Shown here in pieces: positions 1 through 49,720 of a DNA stretch of 54,667 bases. This DNA is from a bacterium (GTDB lineage Bacteria; CLD3; SB21): positions 1-54,667 of the forward strand of contig WBUR01000029.1 of assembly GCA_008933615.1 (NCBI GenBank), read 5' to 3'. How positions within the stretch are numbered: the first letter of the stretch is position 1; every line of letters begins with the position of its first letter. The notes beneath the pieces are model-generated. The model made no database searches. It saw nothing but the letters and a program-made list of their open reading frames with translations, and was not told the DNA's origin. The translations under genes were made by a program, and so were the position numbers.

Positions 1-217
1 ACTTCGTGTCTTAACAGGACTATTCCTGAGACTGCGGCACACCGCCTATTTTACAAACTATATCTTGCAGCCACGATCTGATCGTGGACTGTTAATACCA
101 GCGTGTTGATCTTGTTATTAGTGTGTTATCAAAGAACAAACTTTATGAATTAAAACTTATCAAAACTCTTGACTCTTTACATACCAGCGAAGTCGAAGAC
201 TGATTTTACTAAACTTG
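1..217. other. non-coding left edge
   Basis: No convincing gene. One reading frame is open from the left edge to a TGA at 79-81 and could be the last 26 codons of a gene cut by the window, but nothing in it is recognisable. A perfect 7-bp stem (71-77 with 81-87, loop CTG) lies just after that stop. It is not followed by a T-run, so it is not a standard intrinsic terminator. The rest is AT-rich sequence with no tRNA or rRNA signature that I could recognise. Confidence 0.4.
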
Positions 218-268
218 GTCATGGTTCGACAAGCTTGTCCTGAGCCCTGCCGAAGGGCTCACCATGAC
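218..268. repeat. nested palindromic (cloverleaf-like) intergenic element
   Basis: The outer arms GTCATGGT (218-225) and ACCATGAC (261-268) are perfect inverted copies. Between them sit two further hairpins: the 12-bp palindrome GACAAGCTTGTC (228-239), and GAGCCC (242-247) pairing with GGGCTC (255-260). Together they could fold into a three-stem structure. This architecture is typical of dispersed REP/MITE-like elements. I see only one copy in this window, so calling it dispersed is inference. Confidence 0.6.
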
Positions 269-323
269 GTATGTGCGTAAACCCGATAAGCACATTGAAT
301 AATTGTTTCCAATAAAAAATTCG

Positions 324-644
324 ATGAAAAAATTTCGCGTCTGCAAATTGGATGAACTTACCGAAGGTTCTGCCAAAGCAATCAAAGTTTTTGCACGTCA
401 GATTGCGGTTTTCAATATCAACGGAACCATTCGCGCCGTCGACGGCCTATGCCAACACATGAAAGCGCCTCTTGTGACGTCCGGAAAACTGGATGGCGCC
501 AAACTAACCTGCAAAATGCACGGATGGGAATACGATATCACAACCGGAGAATGTATCGGCAAGCCGTTTGTTAAATTGCGTCAATACGATGTTGAAATCG
601 AAAACGGAGACGTATTTGTAAGAGTGGAATTCGATACAGCGTAA
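324..644 (+). CDS. Rieske [2Fe-2S] ferredoxin-like protein
   Basis: A single-domain soluble Rieske protein of 106 residues. The cluster-binding signature is complete: C43-x-H45 in box 1 and C63-x2-H66 in box 2, with the G-W-E-Y following box 2 as in the ferredoxins of aromatic-ring dioxygenases and the NirD small subunit of nitrite reductase. No signal peptide or membrane anchor is present, so it should act as a cytoplasmic electron carrier. I chose ATG 324 over the upstream in-frame TTG at 303 because homology starts there. No oxygenase or reductase partner is adjacent, so the electron acceptor cannot be named. It stands alone between two palindromic elements. Confidence 0.85.
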   Translation: MKKFRVCKLDELTEGSAKAIKVFARQIAVFNINGTIRAVDGLCQHMKAPLVTSGKLDGAKLTCKMHGWEYDITTGECIGKPFVKLRQYDVEIENGDVFVRVEFDTA

Positions 645-659
645 GTGAGATCCCTTAAC

Positions 660-708
660 CGCAAAGAACGTGAAGGGAACAAAGATAATCAGAAAAATAT
701 TCTTTGCG
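660..708. repeat. inverted repeat, rRNA-free intergenic palindrome
   Basis: CGCAAAGAA (660-668) is matched by its perfect reverse complement TTCTTTGCG (700-708) around a 31-base loop. The arms sit between the Rieske gene and yajQ and do not end in a T-run. It looks like a decayed dispersed palindrome. An open frame that extends yajQ upstream through this repeat is not a real part of that gene. Confidence 0.5.
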
Positions 709-816
709 CGCTATGCGATTAGTATTCGAATCAAACTGCTTCTTGCAAATGACCCCCGTTTTTCTTATTTATCTCAAGAATTATCTTTCAATCACATTCA
801 TTTTCGGAGCAATTCT

Positions 817-1308
817 ATGGCCGACATGCATTCCTTTGATATCGTTTCCAAGATCAACATGCAGGAAATGACCAACGCCATTCAGCAGGCAACCAAGGAA
901 ATCGAGACCCGTTATGATTTTAAAGGAAGTAAAAGTTCAATAGAACTAGGCAAAGAGGAAATTACCGTTTTGTCCGACGATGATTTCAAATTAAAATCCG
1001 TTATCGATATTTTGCAGAACAAAATGATCAAGCGCGGCATTCCGATCAAAGCATTAAAATACGGGAAAGAAGAAGAAGCGACCGGAGGAACGGTGCGCAT
1101 GAAGATCAAGTTGCAGCAGGGCATTGAGCAGGAAAATGCGAAAAAAATTACTGCAACGATCAAAGACACGAAAATGAAAGTTCAGGCCTCCATCCAGGGT
1201 GATCAGGTTCGCGTTACGGCAAAAAGTATCGATGACCTTCAAGCGATCATGAAGTTGTTAAAAGAAAAAGAATTCGATTTTGCAATGCAGTTCGATAATT
1301 ACAGGTGA
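817..1308 (+). CDS. yajQ: YajQ-family nucleotide-binding protein
   Basis: A 163-residue cytoplasmic protein matching the YajQ family over its whole length. It begins with the diagnostic SFDIVS block followed by a Y-D-F-K-G segment. Near the C-terminus it carries the conserved K-V-Q-A-x-I-Q-G-D-x-V-R-V-T block and the D-D-L-Q-A motif. Family members have two ferredoxin-like folds. They bind c-di-GMP in some species and have also been linked to nucleic acids. The frame is open upstream to 670, but ATG 817 has a GGAG about 8 bases ahead and gives the family length. Monocistronic here, with palindromes on both sides. Confidence 0.92.
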
Positions 1309-9199: not shown

Positions 9200-12100
9200 A
9201 TGGCTATGTTCAAAGAAATAGAATCGCAGGACGAACTCCCGAAATTAGAGAAAGACATACTCGAATTTTGGCGTCAGAATAATATTTTCAAGAAAAGCAT
9301 CGAAGAACGGGATCCCGAAAAGGAATTCGTCTTTTATGAAGGCCCCCCGACGGCTAACGGCCGCCCGGGCATTCATCACGTCCTAGCGCGTTCGCTTAAA
9401 GATTTTGTCTGCCGTTACAAAACCATGCAGGGATACCGCGTGGAACGCAAAGGCGGATGGGATACCCACGGACTGCCGGTAGAAATCGAAGTTGAAAAAT
9501 CGCTCAATATCAGCGGCAAAAAAGATATTGAGGCCTTTGGAACGGAAGCGTTCAACAAAAAATGTTTCGAAAGCGTCTGGACGTATAAGAATTTATGGGA
9601 TGAACTCACCGACCGCATGGGATACTGGGTTGATCTGAAAGACCCTTACATCACATGCGATACAAATTATATCGAATCTGTTTGGTGGGTACTCAAGCAA
9701 TTTTACGACAAAGGCCTCGTTTACAAAGGATTCAAAGTTGTCCCCTACTGCCCTCGCTGCGGCACACCGCTGTCCTCGCACGAGGTCGCGCAGGGCTATC
9801 AGGACGTCAGCGATCCGTCGGTGTATATTAAACTCAAATTAAAAAGCGCCGACAACACCTATTTCCTCGTTTGGACCACAACGCCGTGGACGCTCATTTC
9901 CAATGTCGCATTGGCCGTTGGGAATGATATCGACTATGTCAAAGTCAAACACAAAGATCAGATCTTGATCATGGCTGAAGCGCGCGTGAAAGACGTTTTG
10001 AAAGAAGATTATGAGATCGTAGAAACTTTCAAAGGCAAAACCTTATTAGGACTGGACTACGAACCGCCGTTCAATTATATCCCCGTTGATAAAAAAGGAT
10101 TCTACGTGATCGCCGGCGATTTTGTCACGACGGAGGACGGAACGGGAATCGTTCATACGGCGCCCGCATTTGGCGAGGACGATTATATCGTCTGCAAAGC
10201 GCACGACCTGCCGTTCCTGCGGCCGGTGGATGCGGCGGGCAAGTTTGAAGATGCCGTCACCGATTTCAAAGGGCAATTTGTCAAAGACGCCGATCCGGAT
10301 ATTATAACTAATTTAAAACGGCGCGGAATTTTATACCGTTCGGAGAAGGTCAAACATAGTTATCCGCATTGCTGGCGCCATCGCACGCCGCTTATCTATT
10401 ATGCGCGCGACGCTTGGTATATTCGCACTACCGATTTCAAAGACCGTATGGTTGAACATAATGCATCGGTTAACTGGTTCCCGCCGGAGATCAAAGAAGG
10501 CCGCTTTGGGAATTGGCTGCGTAATAATATTGACTGGTCATTGTCACGTGACCGTTACTGGGGCACGCCTTTGCCGATCTGGATTCATGAAGATTCCGGC
10601 GAAATGATATGCGTGGGAAGCCGCGAAGAACTGCAAAAAGGAAAAATGAAAAACGGCCGCGCTGTTCCGAATGATCTTGATCTGCACAAGCCGTACGTAG
10701 ACGACGTCATTATTGAGAAAGACGGAAAAACCTTTACACGCACGCCGGAAGTGGTCGATGTGTGGTTTGATTCAGGCTGTATGCCTTATGCGCAATGGCA
10801 TTACCCGTTCGAGAACAAGGAAATATTTGAGAAGCAATATCCCGCCGATTTTATCTGCGAAGGCGTTGATCAGACCCGCGGATGGTTTTATTCCCTGATG
10901 GCGGTTTCAACGTTTTTATTTGATAAGTCACCCTACAAAAATGTCGTGGTCAACGAACTCGTTCTCGACCCGCAGGGCCGTAAGATGAGCAAGTCGCTCG
11001 GCAATGTGGTCAATCCATTCGAGATGCTGGACCAACACGGAGCGGATATTTTGCGTTGGTATTTGCTTGTCAATACGCCCGTATGGATACCGAAACGTTT
11101 TGACGCCGAGGGACTAAACGATATGAAGAAAAAATTCTTCCGCCCGCTTCTCGAAACGTACAAATTCTTTATTTTGTATGCCAATATCGACGGGTTTGAT
11201 TCTACAGAAAAAGAAATACCGCATGAAGACCGTACCGAACTCGACCGCTGGATATTGTCCCGTTTGCAGACGACCGTTGAAGACGTCATCGAGCAACTCG
11301 AGAAATACGATACAACAAAGGCCGGCAGACTAATTCAAGAATTTGTTGACCAAGATTTGTCAAATTGGTATATTAGGCTTTCACGGAGGCGATTTTGGAA
11401 AGGCGAGCGCGGACAGGACAAAACCGCCGCGTATCAAACGTTATTTGACATTTTGGTCACACTGTCAAAACTCATTGCTCCATTCTGTCCGTTTTTGGCT
11501 GAAAGAATGTACCGCAATCTGAGCGGCGAAGACAAAGCCGGAAGCGTTCATCTTTGCCTTTTTCCGGTCAAGGATCCGGTTAAACAAAGCAAGGCTTTGG
11601 AAGAAAAGATGAGTTCCCCCCGCCGCGTGGTTCAATTGGGGAGAGCTTTACGCGAACTGAAGGAACTAAAGGTCCGGCAGCCTTTGTCAAAGATCATTGT
11701 GGTAACCGAAAAAGAAAATGTTCGCCGCGACATCAACGATTTTGAAGAGCTGATAAAAAGCGAACTCAATGTCAAAGCTATTGAATTTGTTGCAGACTCC
11801 GGTTCGCTTGTTAGCCAAAAGGTGAAACCGAATTTCAAAGCGCTGGGGCCTAAATTCGGCCAGCATGTGAATCAAGTTGCCGCAGCCATTAAGTCGTTCG
11901 GGGAAAAAGAAATTGAAGAATTGGTTCGCTCCGGAAAGCATATGGTCCATGTTGGCGGACATGAATTTGAAGTAACGAAAAGCGAAGTCGAGATCCTTCA
12001 CGAAGAAAAAGAAGGATTAGCCGTTCAATCCGATGGAGCCATCACTGTCGGACTCGATACACACCTGTCGCAGGGTTTGATCGATGAAGGCGTTGCAAGA

Positions 12101-12340
12101 GAATTTATCAACCGCGTTCAAAATCTCAGAAAAGAAGCGGGTTTTGAAGTGATAGAACGGATCAAAATCACATTTGACGGGAGCGATACGCTGAAAAAGG
12201 CAGTCGTAGGCCAAAAACAATATATATTGAATGAAACGCTTTCGACTGAGATACTGACGGCTTTTGCGCATGGCGAATTTTCAAAAGAAGTTGAAATTAA
12301 CGATGAAAAAATTCAGATCAGCGTACAACGGATAAGCTAA
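9200..12340 (+). CDS. ileS: isoleucyl-tRNA synthetase, type 2 (eukaryote-like)
   Basis: Charges tRNA-Ile with isoleucine and edits valine. The 1046 residues and motif style (G-W-D-T-H-G-L-P-V-E-I-E-V-E-K after the active site, V-P-Y-C-P-R-C-G-T-P-L-S-S-H-E-V) are those of IleRS2, the eukaryote-like class also found in some bacteria. The KMSKS loop is at 595-599. The first class I signature reads G57-I-H-H60 rather than the standard H-x-G-H. The editing domain lies about 190-390. It has the long C-terminal domain of type 2 rather than the zinc-finger tail of type 1. Start ATG 9200 is used; Met3 is an alternative. It heads the conserved order ileS - dksA-like - lspA. Confidence 0.95.
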   Translation: MAMFKEIESQDELPKLEKDILEFWRQNNIFKKSIEERDPEKEFVFYEGPPTANGRPGIHHVLARSLKDFVCRYKTMQGYRVERKGGWDTHGLPVEIEVEKSLNISGKKDIEAFGTEAFNKKCFESVWTYKNLWDELTDRMGYWVDLKDPYITCDTNYIESVWWVLKQFYDKGLVYKGFKVVPYCPRCGTPLSSHEVAQGYQDVSDPSVYIKLKLKSADNTYFLVWTTTPWTLISNVALAVGNDIDYVKVKHKDQILIMAEARVKDVLKEDYEIVETFKGKTLLGLDYEPPFNYIPVDKKGFYVIAGDFVTTEDGTGIVHTAPAFGEDDYIVCKAHDLPFLRPVDAAGKFEDAVTDFKGQFVKDADPDIITNLKRRGILYRSEKVKHSYPHCWRHRTPLIYYARDAWYIRTTDFKDRMVEHNASVNWFPPEIKEGRFGNWLRNNIDWSLSRDRYWGTPLPIWIHEDSGEMICVGSREELQKGKMKNGRAVPNDLDLHKPYVDDVIIEKDGKTFTRTPEVVDVWFDSGCMPYAQWHYPFENKEIFEKQYPADFICEGVDQTRGWFYSLMAVSTFLFDKSPYKNVVVNELVLDPQGRKMSKSLGNVVNPFEMLDQHGADILRWYLLVNTPVWIPKRFDAEGLNDMKKKFFRPLLETYKFFILYANIDGFDSTEKEIPHEDRTELDRWILSRLQTTVEDVIEQLEKYDTTKAGRLIQEFVDQDLSNWYIRLSRRRFWKGERGQDKTAAYQTLFDILVTLSKLIAPFCPFLAERMYRNLSGEDKAGSVHLCLFPVKDPVKQSKALEEKMSSPRRVVQLGRALRELKELKVRQPLSKIIVVTEKENVRRDINDFEELIKSELNVKAIEFVADSGSLVSQKVKPNFKALGPKFGQHVNQVAAAIKSFGEKEIEELVRSGKHMVHVGGHEFEVTKSEVEILHEEKEGLAVQSDGAITVGLDTHLSQGLIDEGVAREFINRVQNLRKEAGFEVIERIKITFDGSDTLKKAVVGQKQYILNETLSTEILTAFAHGEFSKEVEINDEKIQISVQRIS

Positions 12341-12380
12341 GGATACTTTTTTTTCTTAACATTACCGAGAGGGGTTTAGC

Positions 12381-12788
12381 ATGAAGAAGAAAGACCTGGA
12401 ATATTTCAGAAAGTTAATCCAGGAGGAGCAAGACAAAGTCCTGAAAGATATGGGTTATATCAAAGAGACCCTTCTGGATTCAACTATGCGCGACGCTTCC
12501 GGCGATCATTCGGCCTATTCATTTCATATGGCCGATCAGGGCAGCGACACCTATGACCGTGAAAAAACGTTCATGCTTGCCTCGCGTGAAAATAAGTACC
12601 TTTCCGAACTCGTTGCCGCTATGCGCCGAATTGAAGAAGGTACATACGGCGTATGCATGATATGCAACAAGGATATTGAGAAGGAACGCCTGGAAGTTGT
12701 CTTGGTCGCAAAATACCACGTCGAATGCAAACGCAAATTAGAAAAAGTGAAGACCAAAGACTCTCACTCTGAATATAATAACCACTAA
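12381..12788 (+). CDS. DksA/TraR-family zinc-finger protein
   Basis: A 135-residue protein of the DksA/TraR family. These bind the RNA polymerase secondary channel or serve as related general-stress proteins. It has an acidic N-terminal coiled-coil half, a D-x-x-D-x-x-x-x-R-E-K-T block, the R-I-E-x-G-T-Y-G-x-C entry to the finger, and a metal site. The four ligands are C92, C95, H113 and C116, so the third Cys of the usual C4 finger is His. GAGAGGGG lies just before the ATG. The location between ileS and lspA is widely conserved in bacteria for this subfamily. It is smaller than E. coli DksA and may not be its functional equivalent. Confidence 0.85.
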   Translation: MKKKDLEYFRKLIQEEQDKVLKDMGYIKETLLDSTMRDASGDHSAYSFHMADQGSDTYDREKTFMLASRENKYLSELVAAMRRIEEGTYGVCMICNKDIEKERLEVVLVAKYHVECKRKLEKVKTKDSHSEYNNH

Positions 12789-12800
12789 CAGGAACGGCCT

Positions 12801-13349
12801 TTGAAAATATACTGGCTCGCATTTTGGATCATTATTTTTGATCAAATCACCAAGTGGATGGTGAAACACTGGATGAACCTTCATGATTCCATTTCATTGA
12901 TCGGAACAACGGTTCAACTTACTTATTTGGAAAATCCGGGTATGGCTTTTGGTATCCGTTTTTTTGAAACGCATCCGTTTTGGAGCAGATGGTTTTTTTC
13001 GATAGTATCCATTCTTGCTTCCATTGGGCTGATATGGTATATTTACCGCATGCGTCATGAACGCCGGATGTACCGTGTTTCTCTCGCGTTGATTCTTGGC
13101 GGCGCGGTCGGCAATCTGATCGACCGGGTAACTTTTGGCCGGGTAGTCGATTTCATGGACGTGGATATACCTGATTTGTTTGGCATGCAGAGGTGGCCGG
13201 TATTTAATGTTGCCGATTCATCCGTTGTATTAGGCATGATCGTGATGAGCGCCTTTGTAATGTTTACTAAACACGGTAAAGAACAAGTTCAGGCTGATGA
13301 AGAGGAAACGCAAACGATGATTGGAACGAAAAAAGAGATGGCGGAATAA
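12801..13349 (+). CDS. lspA: lipoprotein signal peptidase (signal peptidase II)
   Basis: An integral inner-membrane aspartyl protease that removes signal peptides from diacylglyceryl-modified prolipoproteins. The 182 residues include four membrane helices. Conserved boxes are F-D-Q-I-T-K-W at 13-19, the L-E-N-P-G-x-A-F-G box, G-N-L-I-D-R (catalytic D108) and F-N-V-A-D-S (catalytic D139). The start is a TTG with AGGA about 7 bases upstream; it begins 12 bp after the DksA-like stop. The last 30 residues are a charged cytoplasmic tail. It fits a genome with many lipoproteins, several of which are seen in this window. Confidence 0.94.
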   Translation: MKIYWLAFWIIIFDQITKWMVKHWMNLHDSISLIGTTVQLTYLENPGMAFGIRFFETHPFWSRWFFSIVSILASIGLIWYIYRMRHERRMYRVSLALILGGAVGNLIDRVTFGRVVDFMDVDIPDLFGMQRWPVFNVADSSVVLGMIVMSAFVMFTKHGKEQVQADEEETQTMIGTKKEMAE

Positions 13350-45928: not shown

Positions 45929-48900
45929 ATGAATGTTGCTGACTCATTAAATTCGGCATCAAATTGGACAGATAGTAAGACAACAAATGGAACACCTGGC
46001 AATTATCCCGAACTAGATCTTTCAATTAAGGAACAGCGACTTATTTTTGTCCCAACAGAGCCCCCGACAAATTCTACGGTCAATATAACTGCAATAGTCA
46101 ATAACATGGCTATCCGCGGAGCAGACAGTTTTAAAGTTAAGTTTTACGAGGACCTTAATAGAAATTACAATGCAGAAGATGGTGAGGAATTAGATTCAGT
46201 CAACCATTTAACATCGCTGAATTTCGCCGATTCGGCTACGGTGTCGGTAAATTCTTCCTCACTTTCAAGCGGGACACATGTTTTCCTTGCGAAAATTGTT
46301 AATATATTTCCTAATGCAGACACTTCACTGTCCAATAATACAGTTATTGACTCCGTTTCAACAGTTCCCGCAATGGATCTTTCTGTGAGTACGTCATTTC
46401 TCACTTTTACTCCGTCGAATCCAAAAGTCGGAGACAACTTGCAAGTCATTTCGAGGATAAAAAATACAGGTTTAACTGCAACTACTGATTTTACGGTAAA
46501 ATTTTATGAGGATATCAACCGTAATGTGTTTCCGGACGCAAACGAATTCATAGATTCGGTCAACTTTGCGGGTATTCTAAATACAAACGATTCCATGAAT
46601 GTCTCGATAATGGTAAATGGTATAACATTCGGCTGGCATCCGTATCTGGCCAAAATTATTCCTTCGAGCGTCATACCGCTAGTAGACGAGGTCAGTTCCA
46701 ATGATCAGCGTATGGATTCCGTAAACGTCACGATTCCCGATTCGATCACCCTTACGGAGGTGATGTTTAAACCAATTAGCGGTGAGGATTTTGACGAATT
46801 TATAGAAGTATATAACTACAGCAATCAGCCGATAGACCTGCTAAATTGGCGCGTTCGAGATAACAGTGCAATGGATACGTTGAAAAATGCAGGTTCCGGT
46901 ACCATATTAAATCCAGGTCAATTTGCTGTAATATTTCATCAAGGTTACGATCTTGTAAACGGCTTATATAAAGATATTTTTCCAGTCGGGGCGCTCCCAC
47001 TGAAAGTTCACAGCGGATTAATAGGAAACGGTTTAGGAAATTCGGCCGATTCCGTAAAATTAGTGAATTCGATAGGAGATACGATCTCGCGATATGCCTG
47101 GTCGGTGTCGAGCGGTTTCACGTCAGGTATTTCGCACGAGAAAAAAAATTTAAATAACGATAACTCTCCGTCAAATTGGATAAATAGCATTTATATAAAT
47201 GGTACACCCGGATTTTTAAATAGCGTGACGCCAAAACAATTTGATCTTTCGATACTACCCCATGATATTGCTTTTTCACCGGCCTATCCGGTTTCCGGTC
47301 AGATGTTTTCAATCTCAGGGCGGCTTTACAATATCGGCGAAATGCCCACCGGCAGTTTTTCAGTGAATATTTACCGTTATGTTGACCAGGACTCGATATT
47401 GCTTTCGTCCTTCAATTCAACCGGTTTAGCTCCGGGAGACTTTGTCGTAATAGCGGCGTCCGATACATCTGTTGTTGAAGAACAGCAAATTCTTATCCGT
47501 ATTATTTATCCGTCAGATGAAAATTTACAAAACAATGTTGCACTCAAAAAAATTGTATTGGGCGCGAAACGATTTTCCGTTGTCGTCAATGAAATTAATT
47601 ACCTCCCCTCTTCAACTTCTACAGAGTGGATCGAACTGTATAACCGCAGTCCGGATTCCGTCAACTTAAAAAAATGGAAATGGAGCGATGAGGCAAATAT
47701 TAATTCTCCGAAGTCCATAACAACGTCTAATTATTGGCTCAAATCAGACGGCTATGTTTTACTTGTCAAAGATTCCGCTTTGTTTAATAATTTCTACGCC
47801 AACGTTCCTGCTCACAAATTTTATATGAATACAAACTTTTCCTCATTAAATAATTCGGGCGATTTGATTGTCCTTTTCGATAGCCTTGATATTCCGATTG
47901 ATAGTCTGTTTTATGAACCTACCTGGGGAGGCGGTGCGGATATTTCCTTAGAGCGGGTCATCGCAGATTCTGCGTCGACCATTCCATCGAACTGGCGGTC
48001 TTCCGAAGCCTATCACCAGGCAACGCCGGGTTCATTGAACAGCCAAACACCGGTTGCATTCGATATCGCGGTACGTCAAAATGATATTACTTTTTCACCG
48101 CCGCATCCGGCTGTAAATCAGCCGGTCACCATCACAGCTGTTGTTCGTAATAAAGGCTTACAGGCTATTAATTCATATTTTACTGTAAAAGTATTTTATG
48201 ACGAGGATGTAAATCAAACTCCTGAACCATCTGAATTAATTGATTCGATAGGAATCAACAGCCTTAACGTTGACGATTCCCAAGCGGTTGAAATAAACTG
48301 GACAGTCCCGTCCATTCTTTCCAAAAGAAATTCTCAGCTAGCTGAATCCCGATATATTATTGTTCTGTTGGAATACAGCGGAGACCAACGTATTGAAAAC
48401 AATTTGACTATCCGAGAACTCAAGATCGGTATCCGTGATCAATCAGTTTTGATCAATGAAATATTGTATGAGCCTGACACATCGCAGGTCGAGTTTATTG
48501 AAATTTATAATTTCAACAACACAGCATTGAATCTTCAAAACTGGACGATTTCAGATGCCTCTTCCTCTAAAGTAATCGTAGAACTGCCTCAATATATTTC
48601 CACACAACAATTTAGAGTATTAACCGGCGACAGTTCTTTTTTTAGAAATTTTCCATCTGTTCCCGACAGTTTAGTTATAGTTATTCCCTCCATGCCATCC
48701 TTAAATAATACGGATGATAAAGTCGTTCTCAAAGACGATGTAGGGAATGTGGTTGACAGCCTGCATTATTACAGTACCTGGGGCGGTCGAAACGGCAAGA
48801 GTTTGGAGCGCCGCAGTTCCACTTCGAATACGAATGACCCGGCAAACTGGGTTTCATCTCTGTCTGCAGCCAGATCTACTCCCGCCGCGGCTAACAGCAT

Positions 48901-49720
48901 TTTTCAGGCGCATGCTTATTTACGCAATTCGCTCCTGATAAATGAAATCATGTACAGCCCGTTCACCGGTGAACCCGAATACATAGAAGTTTATAATCCA
49001 GCGGACTCAGGAATAAACCTGCTGAACTGGAGCTTGTTGGTTGGGTCTGACAAAACCATTATTGTGTCTGATCATTTTATCCTGCCGTCAAAAGATTATG
49101 CAGTTCTTGCCCAGAATACTTCCTTTTCGAATCGTTTTGATATTCCAAATTCTAAAATTCTTTTAACCGAAAGCGGTTTGCCTACGCTTTCTAATTCAGG
49201 TAATACGATATTACTTCAAGATCTTGTCGGAAACACTATTGACAGTGTGAACTATTCGCCAAACTGGGGCGGCGGCGAAGGTATTTCGATTGAGCGGATT
49301 CGTTCCGACGGAGACGCAAATGTAGCCGGCAACTGGGGATCGTGTGTATTCATTGAGGGTGGAACGCCAGGCGCAATCAATAGTAATATTGCAGGCAGCT
49401 TACGAAAAAAAATAAATATCACCGCCTCCCCCAACCCGTTCCTGGTTGATCAGGGGCAGCAAACAAAAATAACGATTGATATACCGGTCGCACAAGCGCG
49501 CATGACCGTCAAAATCTACGATAATCAGGGCCGTTTGATCAATACGTTATTAAATAATTCATTGACAGGCAGCCACCGGGAAATCGAATGGGATGGGAAA
49601 GACAGAGGTCGTAAAATTGCGAGGATGGGAATATATATTATCTATGTCGAAGTAATTGACGATATTTCCGGTTTTAGTAAGAGCGCAAAACAAACTGTAG
49701 TTTTGGCCAGACGATTGTAG
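45929..49720 (+). CDS. large lamin-tail / CARDB surface protein, C-terminal part
   Basis: 1263 residues as read; with the preceding fragment, one 45448-49720 gene with an extra T at 45722-45727. Joined, it has five lamin-tail (LTD) domains starting near 33, 431, 708, 997 and 1160. They share the pattern hydrophobic-x-N-E-I/V-M-x-x-P then E-x-I-E-I/V-Y-N then L-x-x-W. Between them lie four CARDB-like Ig repeats (D-L-S-x-x-x-x-x-F/I-x-F-x-P). The last hundred residues (from about 1322) start S-P-N-P-F and contain a FlgD-type Ig module, typical of secreted FCB proteins. Probably cell-surface or extracellular; LTD domains may bind DNA or act as envelope modules. Confidence 0.83.
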   Translation: MNVADSLNSASNWTDSKTTNGTPGNYPELDLSIKEQRLIFVPTEPPTNSTVNITAIVNNMAIRGADSFKVKFYEDLNRNYNAEDGEELDSVNHLTSLNFADSATVSVNSSSLSSGTHVFLAKIVNIFPNADTSLSNNTVIDSVSTVPAMDLSVSTSFLTFTPSNPKVGDNLQVISRIKNTGLTATTDFTVKFYEDINRNVFPDANEFIDSVNFAGILNTNDSMNVSIMVNGITFGWHPYLAKIIPSSVIPLVDEVSSNDQRMDSVNVTIPDSITLTEVMFKPISGEDFDEFIEVYNYSNQPIDLLNWRVRDNSAMDTLKNAGSGTILNPGQFAVIFHQGYDLVNGLYKDIFPVGALPLKVHSGLIGNGLGNSADSVKLVNSIGDTISRYAWSVSSGFTSGISHEKKNLNNDNSPSNWINSIYINGTPGFLNSVTPKQFDLSILPHDIAFSPAYPVSGQMFSISGRLYNIGEMPTGSFSVNIYRYVDQDSILLSSFNSTGLAPGDFVVIAASDTSVVEEQQILIRIIYPSDENLQNNVALKKIVLGAKRFSVVVNEINYLPSSTSTEWIELYNRSPDSVNLKKWKWSDEANINSPKSITTSNYWLKSDGYVLLVKDSALFNNFYANVPAHKFYMNTNFSSLNNSGDLIVLFDSLDIPIDSLFYEPTWGGGADISLERVIADSASTIPSNWRSSEAYHQATPGSLNSQTPVAFDIAVRQNDITFSPPHPAVNQPVTITAVVRNKGLQAINSYFTVKVFYDEDVNQTPEPSELIDSIGINSLNVDDSQAVEINWTVPSILSKRNSQLAESRYIIVLLEYSGDQRIENNLTIRELKIGIRDQSVLINEILYEPDTSQVEFIEIYNFNNTALNLQNWTISDASSSKVIVELPQYISTQQFRVLTGDSSFFRNFPSVPDSLVIVIPSMPSLNNTDDKVVLKDDVGNVVDSLHYYSTWGGRNGKSLERRSSTSNTNDPANWVSSLSAARSTPAAANSIFQAHAYLRNSLLINEIMYSPFTGEPEYIEVYNPADSGINLLNWSLLVGSDKTIIVSDHFILPSKDYAVLAQNTSFSNRFDIPNSKILLTESGLPTLSNSGNTILLQDLVGNTIDSVNYSPNWGGGEGISIERIRSDGDANVAGNWGSCVFIEGGTPGAINSNIAGSLRKKINITASPNPFLVDQGQQTKITIDIPVAQARMTVKIYDNQGRLINTLLNNSLTGSHREIEWDGKDRGRKIARMGIYIIYVEVIDDISGFSKSAKQTVVLARRL

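Follow-up and report, generated by a model that had tools for sequence, protein, structure and literature searches.

The 54,667-nucleotide stretch of DNA analysed here (the window; positions 1 to 54,667 of contig WBUR01000029.1, assembly GCA_008933615.1, from an uncultured bacterium of the lineage CLD3) carries ileS, the gene of an isoleucyl-tRNA synthetase (IleRS) of type 2 whose class I signature reads GIHH. An initial annotation, made from the sequence alone, had placed this motif near residue 57 and described it as HxGH with the first and third positions exchanged, and the codons at 9368-9379 indeed give G57-I58-H59-H60. The enzyme therefore belongs with the G/AxHH forms, which have Gly or Ala as the first and His as the third and fourth motif residue. 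The gene, its domains and its motifs are the following:

9200..12340, + strand: ileS, type-2 isoleucyl-tRNA synthetase, 1046 amino acids (open reading frame, TIGR00392, Pfam domains, tree, model)
residues 20-627, + strand: class I catalytic domain, PF00133 (Pfam)
9368..9379, + strand: class I signature G57-I58-H59-H60, GxHH in place of HxGH (codons GGC ATT CAT CAC read directly)
9386-9388, + strand: residue 63, Ala (alignment)
9875..9883, + strand: threonine-rich part of the CP1 (connective peptide 1) editing site, T226-T227-T228 in WTTTPWTL (invariant in 12/12 aligned type-2 IleRS, hereafter IleRS2)
10181..10183, + strand: editing-site aspartate D328 in APAFGEDDY (invariant in 12/12 aligned IleRS2)
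10982..10996, + strand: KMSKS loop motif, canonical, residues 595-599 (translation and alignment)
11243..11695, + strand: anticodon-binding domain Anticodon_1, PF08264, residues 682-832 (118 bits)
11744..12331, + strand: C-terminal domain DUF5915, PF19302, residues 849-1044 (191.6 bits)

The reading frame at 9200-12340 is uninterrupted and encodes a complete IleRS; the NCBIfam profile of isoleucine--tRNA ligase (TIGR00392) scores 1040.7 bits over residues 8-843, against a cut-off of 621.4, and the KMSKS loop is intact, as had been stated at the outset. The role of T226-T228 as CP1 editing residues is what we take to be established knowledge of IleRS editing, and D328 is presumably the counterpart of the E. 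coli editing aspartate. Because related IleRS begin at the second ATG in the alignment, here at 9206, the real start may lie two codons downstream, which would put the motif at residue 55 rather than 57.

In a tree of 34 rows, 23 type-2 and 11 type-1 sequences were parted at 100/100, and the window enzyme stood among the type-2 sequences, where it grouped with its own phylum (100/99) inside a larger group (97/98) of Bacteroidota, Acetoanaerobium and canonical Bacillota enzymes. The GxHH label corresponds to two to three changes on this tree, the deep order of which is left unsure by two long-branched rows from contigs filed as viral (L067 and L068). The C-terminal region is likewise that of type 2, with DUF5915 at residues 849-1044, and the Pfam scan of the product found no zinc-finger family at E<=0.001 that could stand for the type-1 zinc finger. 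An AlphaFold model built from 19 sequences (mean predicted local distance difference test score 87.8; predicted template-modelling score 0.76) aligns to the P. megaterium IleRS2 structure 8c8v over 4..1046. The top solved matches in Foldseek were P. megaterium IleRS2 entries (template-modelling score 0.86-0.89, 46-47% identity), and VIA-align compared the model with such entries at Z 45.1-45.7 over 964-1028 residues, with a root-mean-square deviation of 3.1-5.0. The position in the tree and these best structural matches, themselves type-2 IleRS, bear out the type given in the initial annotation. In the model G57-H60 lies at the start (the tip) of helix 58-76. Since the fold comparison ties 8c8u, 8c8v, 8c9d and 8c8w, with the wild type and the hyper-resistant mutant level, the fold search itself does not favour GxHH.

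In sequence, the PGIHH of the window aligns without gaps onto PHVGH of wild-type P. megaterium IleRS2 (8c8u) and T. thermophilus IleRS (1ile), and onto PGVHH of the engineered P. megaterium mutant 8c8w, which was the top sequence match in the PDB and scored above the wild type. The initial annotation had proposed an alignment with HxGH and GxHH enzymes as a check and had named misalignment as a ground for giving the motif up; in the alignment to the solved structures no gap runs through the motif, and the swap stands. The probability that GIHH is an artefact, i.e., a sequencing error, a frameshift or a misalignment of an enzyme with canonical HxGH, is negligible: to turn HIGH into GIHH takes changes in two codons, beyond one single error, the frame is open across all 1046 residues with gapless alignment to solved structures, and the motif recurs in eight of the nine separately assembled genomes of the phylum as well as in other phyla. 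Its occurrence in independent genomes and in Bacteroidota, a clostridium and actinomycetes means that neither a sequencing nor an alignment error accounts for the swap. The valS and leuS genes of the window's genome keep the usual HxGH, and to judge by these two the swap is restricted to IleRS.

The pattern NGxPGxHH gave one match in each of these eight genomes; in the ninth (G003), the contig ends within ileS, and the part ahead of about residue 141, where the motif would lie, is missing. Neither the canonical type-2 pattern NGxPHxGH nor the type-1 motif pattern was found in any of the nine. From these pattern matches, the phylum seems to be fixed for the swapped signature, carried by its sole IleRS. 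GxHH rows also came from Acetoanaerobium, Riemerella, Parabacteroides, Bacteroides, Nonomuraea and Rhodococcus, and HxGH type-2 rows include Sutcliffiella, Paenibacillus and Tsukamurella.

Some further ileS genes were observed in this survey. A 691-kb plasmid of Rhodococcus opacus, typed mobilizable (L088, NZ_CP095404.2), carries an ileS with GTHH; the Thr at motif position 2 falls outside the list of Ile, Val, Leu, Met and Tyr as given in PMC10485003. NZ_CP154629.1 and NZ_LT559118.1, which contain ileS, are labelled plasmids, but at 2.6 and 11.9 Mb they resemble chromosomes. L068:2977-5814 (IMGVR_UViG_3300044796_000657), part of a contig of 430 kb classed as viral, encodes a GIHH IleRS that has Thr at position 63, next to glutamate dehydrogenase-like and RtcB-like genes (named by eye); if this contig is truly viral, a GxHH IleRS on a huge phage would be of interest. 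At L067:2980-6132 (IMGVR_UViG_3300000114_000627) lies the gene of a divergent IleRS whose signature is MGVHH and whose loop reads KFSKT; it stands downstream of integrase-like and translation-GTPase-like open reading frames and is followed by an AlaX-like one (by eye), and this locus may be a mobile resistance module.

The window's own genome (3.77 Mb, 97 contigs, 99.05% complete) contains nine stretches with matches to the ileS profile, and only the window ileS passes the cut-off. The next-best loci are valS, leuS and metG (NCBIfam), and two weak matches lie far below the cut-off (C4:79957-80157, in a 565-amino-acid frame, and C6:103786-103998, in a 494-amino-acid frame). A second, standard IleRS, the presence of which would have told against the initial annotation, was not found in this genome with PF00133, TIGR00392 or the type-1 motif pattern; the window ileS is the sole, housekeeping IleRS of an uncultured bacterium. 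That it should be a dedicated accessory resistance synthetase of the MupA kind, standing beside a sensitive housekeeping IleRS, is highly improbable. It does score 988 bits with the MupA model and 932 with the MupB model, as any type-2 IleRS might, but both values are far under the cut-off of 1900 of the two models, ileS is set close to lspA (listed below), and no partner enzyme is found in the genome, of which roughly 1% lies outside the assembly. The staphylococcal MupA and MupB are type-2 IleRS like the window enzyme (about 43% identity to MupA), but they are acquired plasmid genes, each a second ileS beside a sensitive type-1 enzyme, whereas the window gene is the only ileS of its genome.

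The link between GxHH and very high insensitivity to mupirocin, to which the initial annotation had referred, is already in the literature, backed by kinetic measurements and crystal structures (Brkic et al. 2023, PMC10485003). In the 379 IleRS sequences of that study, type 2 comprises 86 G/AxHH versus 77 HxGH enzymes, and G/AxHH is reported as absent among the type-1 enzymes of the set. With roughly one in two type-2 enzymes of that set carrying it, the swapped motif is common, and the window case is less surprising than first rated. The motif is reported to lift the inhibition constant (Ki) of mupirocin up to 1000-fold; that of D. radiodurans IleRS2 (ALHH) fell from 6.6 mM to 8.1 uM when the motif was changed to HVGH (PMC10485003). 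For the IleRS of S. griseus, which bears the G/AxHH motif according to PMC10485003, a Ki of 10 mM is given in PMC4861432. The enzymes of these two species are of type 2 with positions 1 and 3 exchanged and have a housekeeping role, as in the window, but theirs have kinetics, whereas the GIHH enzyme of the uncultured phylum is known here from its sequence. P. megaterium IleRS2 (8c8v, 8c8u, 8c8w) shows about 47% identity along its full length, with the same domains and fold; its mutant 8c8w shares the swapped motif, but the wild type has HVGH and Gly63 where the window enzyme has GIHH and Ala63. T. thermophilus IleRS2 (1ile), 48-49% identical over the aligned part, is also of type 2 and has Ala63 as in the window, but its motif is HVGH. 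The Deinococcus-Thermus clade is described in PMC10485003 as having reverted naturally from the swapped motif.

According to the crystal structures in PMC10485003, helix alpha1 of type 2 gives the third histidine room to take over catalysis, and modelling in the same study has this histidine clash with mupirocin. By this mechanism the tip of helix alpha1 in type-2 enzymes is displaced, so that the distance from the adenine to the third motif residue grows by about 1.7 A. This leaves space for a histidine at the third position, which assumes the catalytic role of the first His of HxGH, and it would be this same histidine that collides with mupirocin. The window enzyme would accordingly be expected to charge tRNA-Ile normally and to be inhibited only at very high mupirocin. 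Very probably, the window gene is a sole housekeeping type-2 IleRS with a naturally swapped GxHH that works by the published mechanism; its catalytic competence and mupirocin hyper-insensitivity we infer from homologues. On the other side, the AlphaFold model is ligand-free and speaks for the overall fold only. GVHH engineered into IleRS2 gave a Ki of 460 uM in P. megaterium and 35 uM in T. thermophilus (PMC10485003), a gain of about 200- to 430-fold that ends at 35-460 uM and not in the millimolar range, and therefore how strongly the motif acts varies with the enzyme background. The same study reports no catalytic cost for the natural-motif enzyme of D. radiodurans, and a kcat (turnover number) reduced up to about tenfold in the engineered P. 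megaterium GVHH mutant. As both the mechanism and the variant are already in print, the window gene is a further example and not a new mechanism.

Residue 63 was considered as a possible co-varying position. Among the 12 aligned IleRS2 rows (A3), Ala63 occurs in all nine with GxHH and in none of the three with HxGH; in the wider set it occurs in 14 of 16 GxHH rows (L067 has Gly and L068 Thr) versus one of 11 HxGH type-2 rows (L065), both counts including near-copies (e.g., L064 and L066). T. thermophilus IleRS, reported to be a reversion, also combines HVGH with Ala at this position, and Gly is retained in the engineered P. megaterium mutant, the one with the lowered kcat. Because there are exceptions on both sides (two and one, respectively) and only two independent GxHH/HxGH contrasts on the tree, Ala63 as a compensating change for GxHH, common but not strict, is no more than a suggestion. 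A term search of the main text of PMC10485003 for “alanine”, “compensat” and “epista” returned none of them.

Downstream of ileS the window continues with two genes, in the order ileS - DksA/TraR-like - lspA over 9200-13349:

12381..12788, + strand: DksA/TraR-type zinc finger protein (PF01258, 20.1 bits, below the cut-off of 24.9)
12801..13349, + strand: lspA, signal peptidase II (PF01252, 141.3 bits)

The ileS - TraR/DksA pair is also present in Riemerella (L059), and this shared pair hints at kinship with Bacteroidota and allies. Elsewhere in the window, 45929-49720 encodes a protein of 1263 amino acids that matches the lamin-tail domain four times, contains a CARDB domain and weakly resembles FlgD-Ig; it is probably a secreted surface protein. 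No RNA families or tRNAs were found in the window, promoter-like sites were not in excess (5 versus a mean of 7.4 in shuffles), and terminator-like sites numbered 9 versus 6.6 in shuffles.

Why the motif is kept is a separate matter. GxHH might be a neutral or otherwise selected ancestral alternative, with mupirocin insensitivity a by-product that never mattered in this lineage, and we give this somewhat short of an even chance; it is favoured by the fixation of GxHH in the phylum as far as visible, by its presence in several unrelated lineages and by the lack of catalytic cost reported for D. radiodurans. Such an explanation is compatible with the biochemical mechanism and bears only on why the motif persists. 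More tentatively, GxHH in the phylum, and perhaps in related ones, could be an old fixed catalytic signature kept irrespective of mupirocin, the insensitivity following from an early shift in catalytic geometry and not from adaptation to the drug. The window gene brings in an uncultured phylum where this signature is seemingly fixed, which should help to trace the origin of GxHH in time, and in practice bacteria of this group are not expected to respond to mupirocin as a selective agent.
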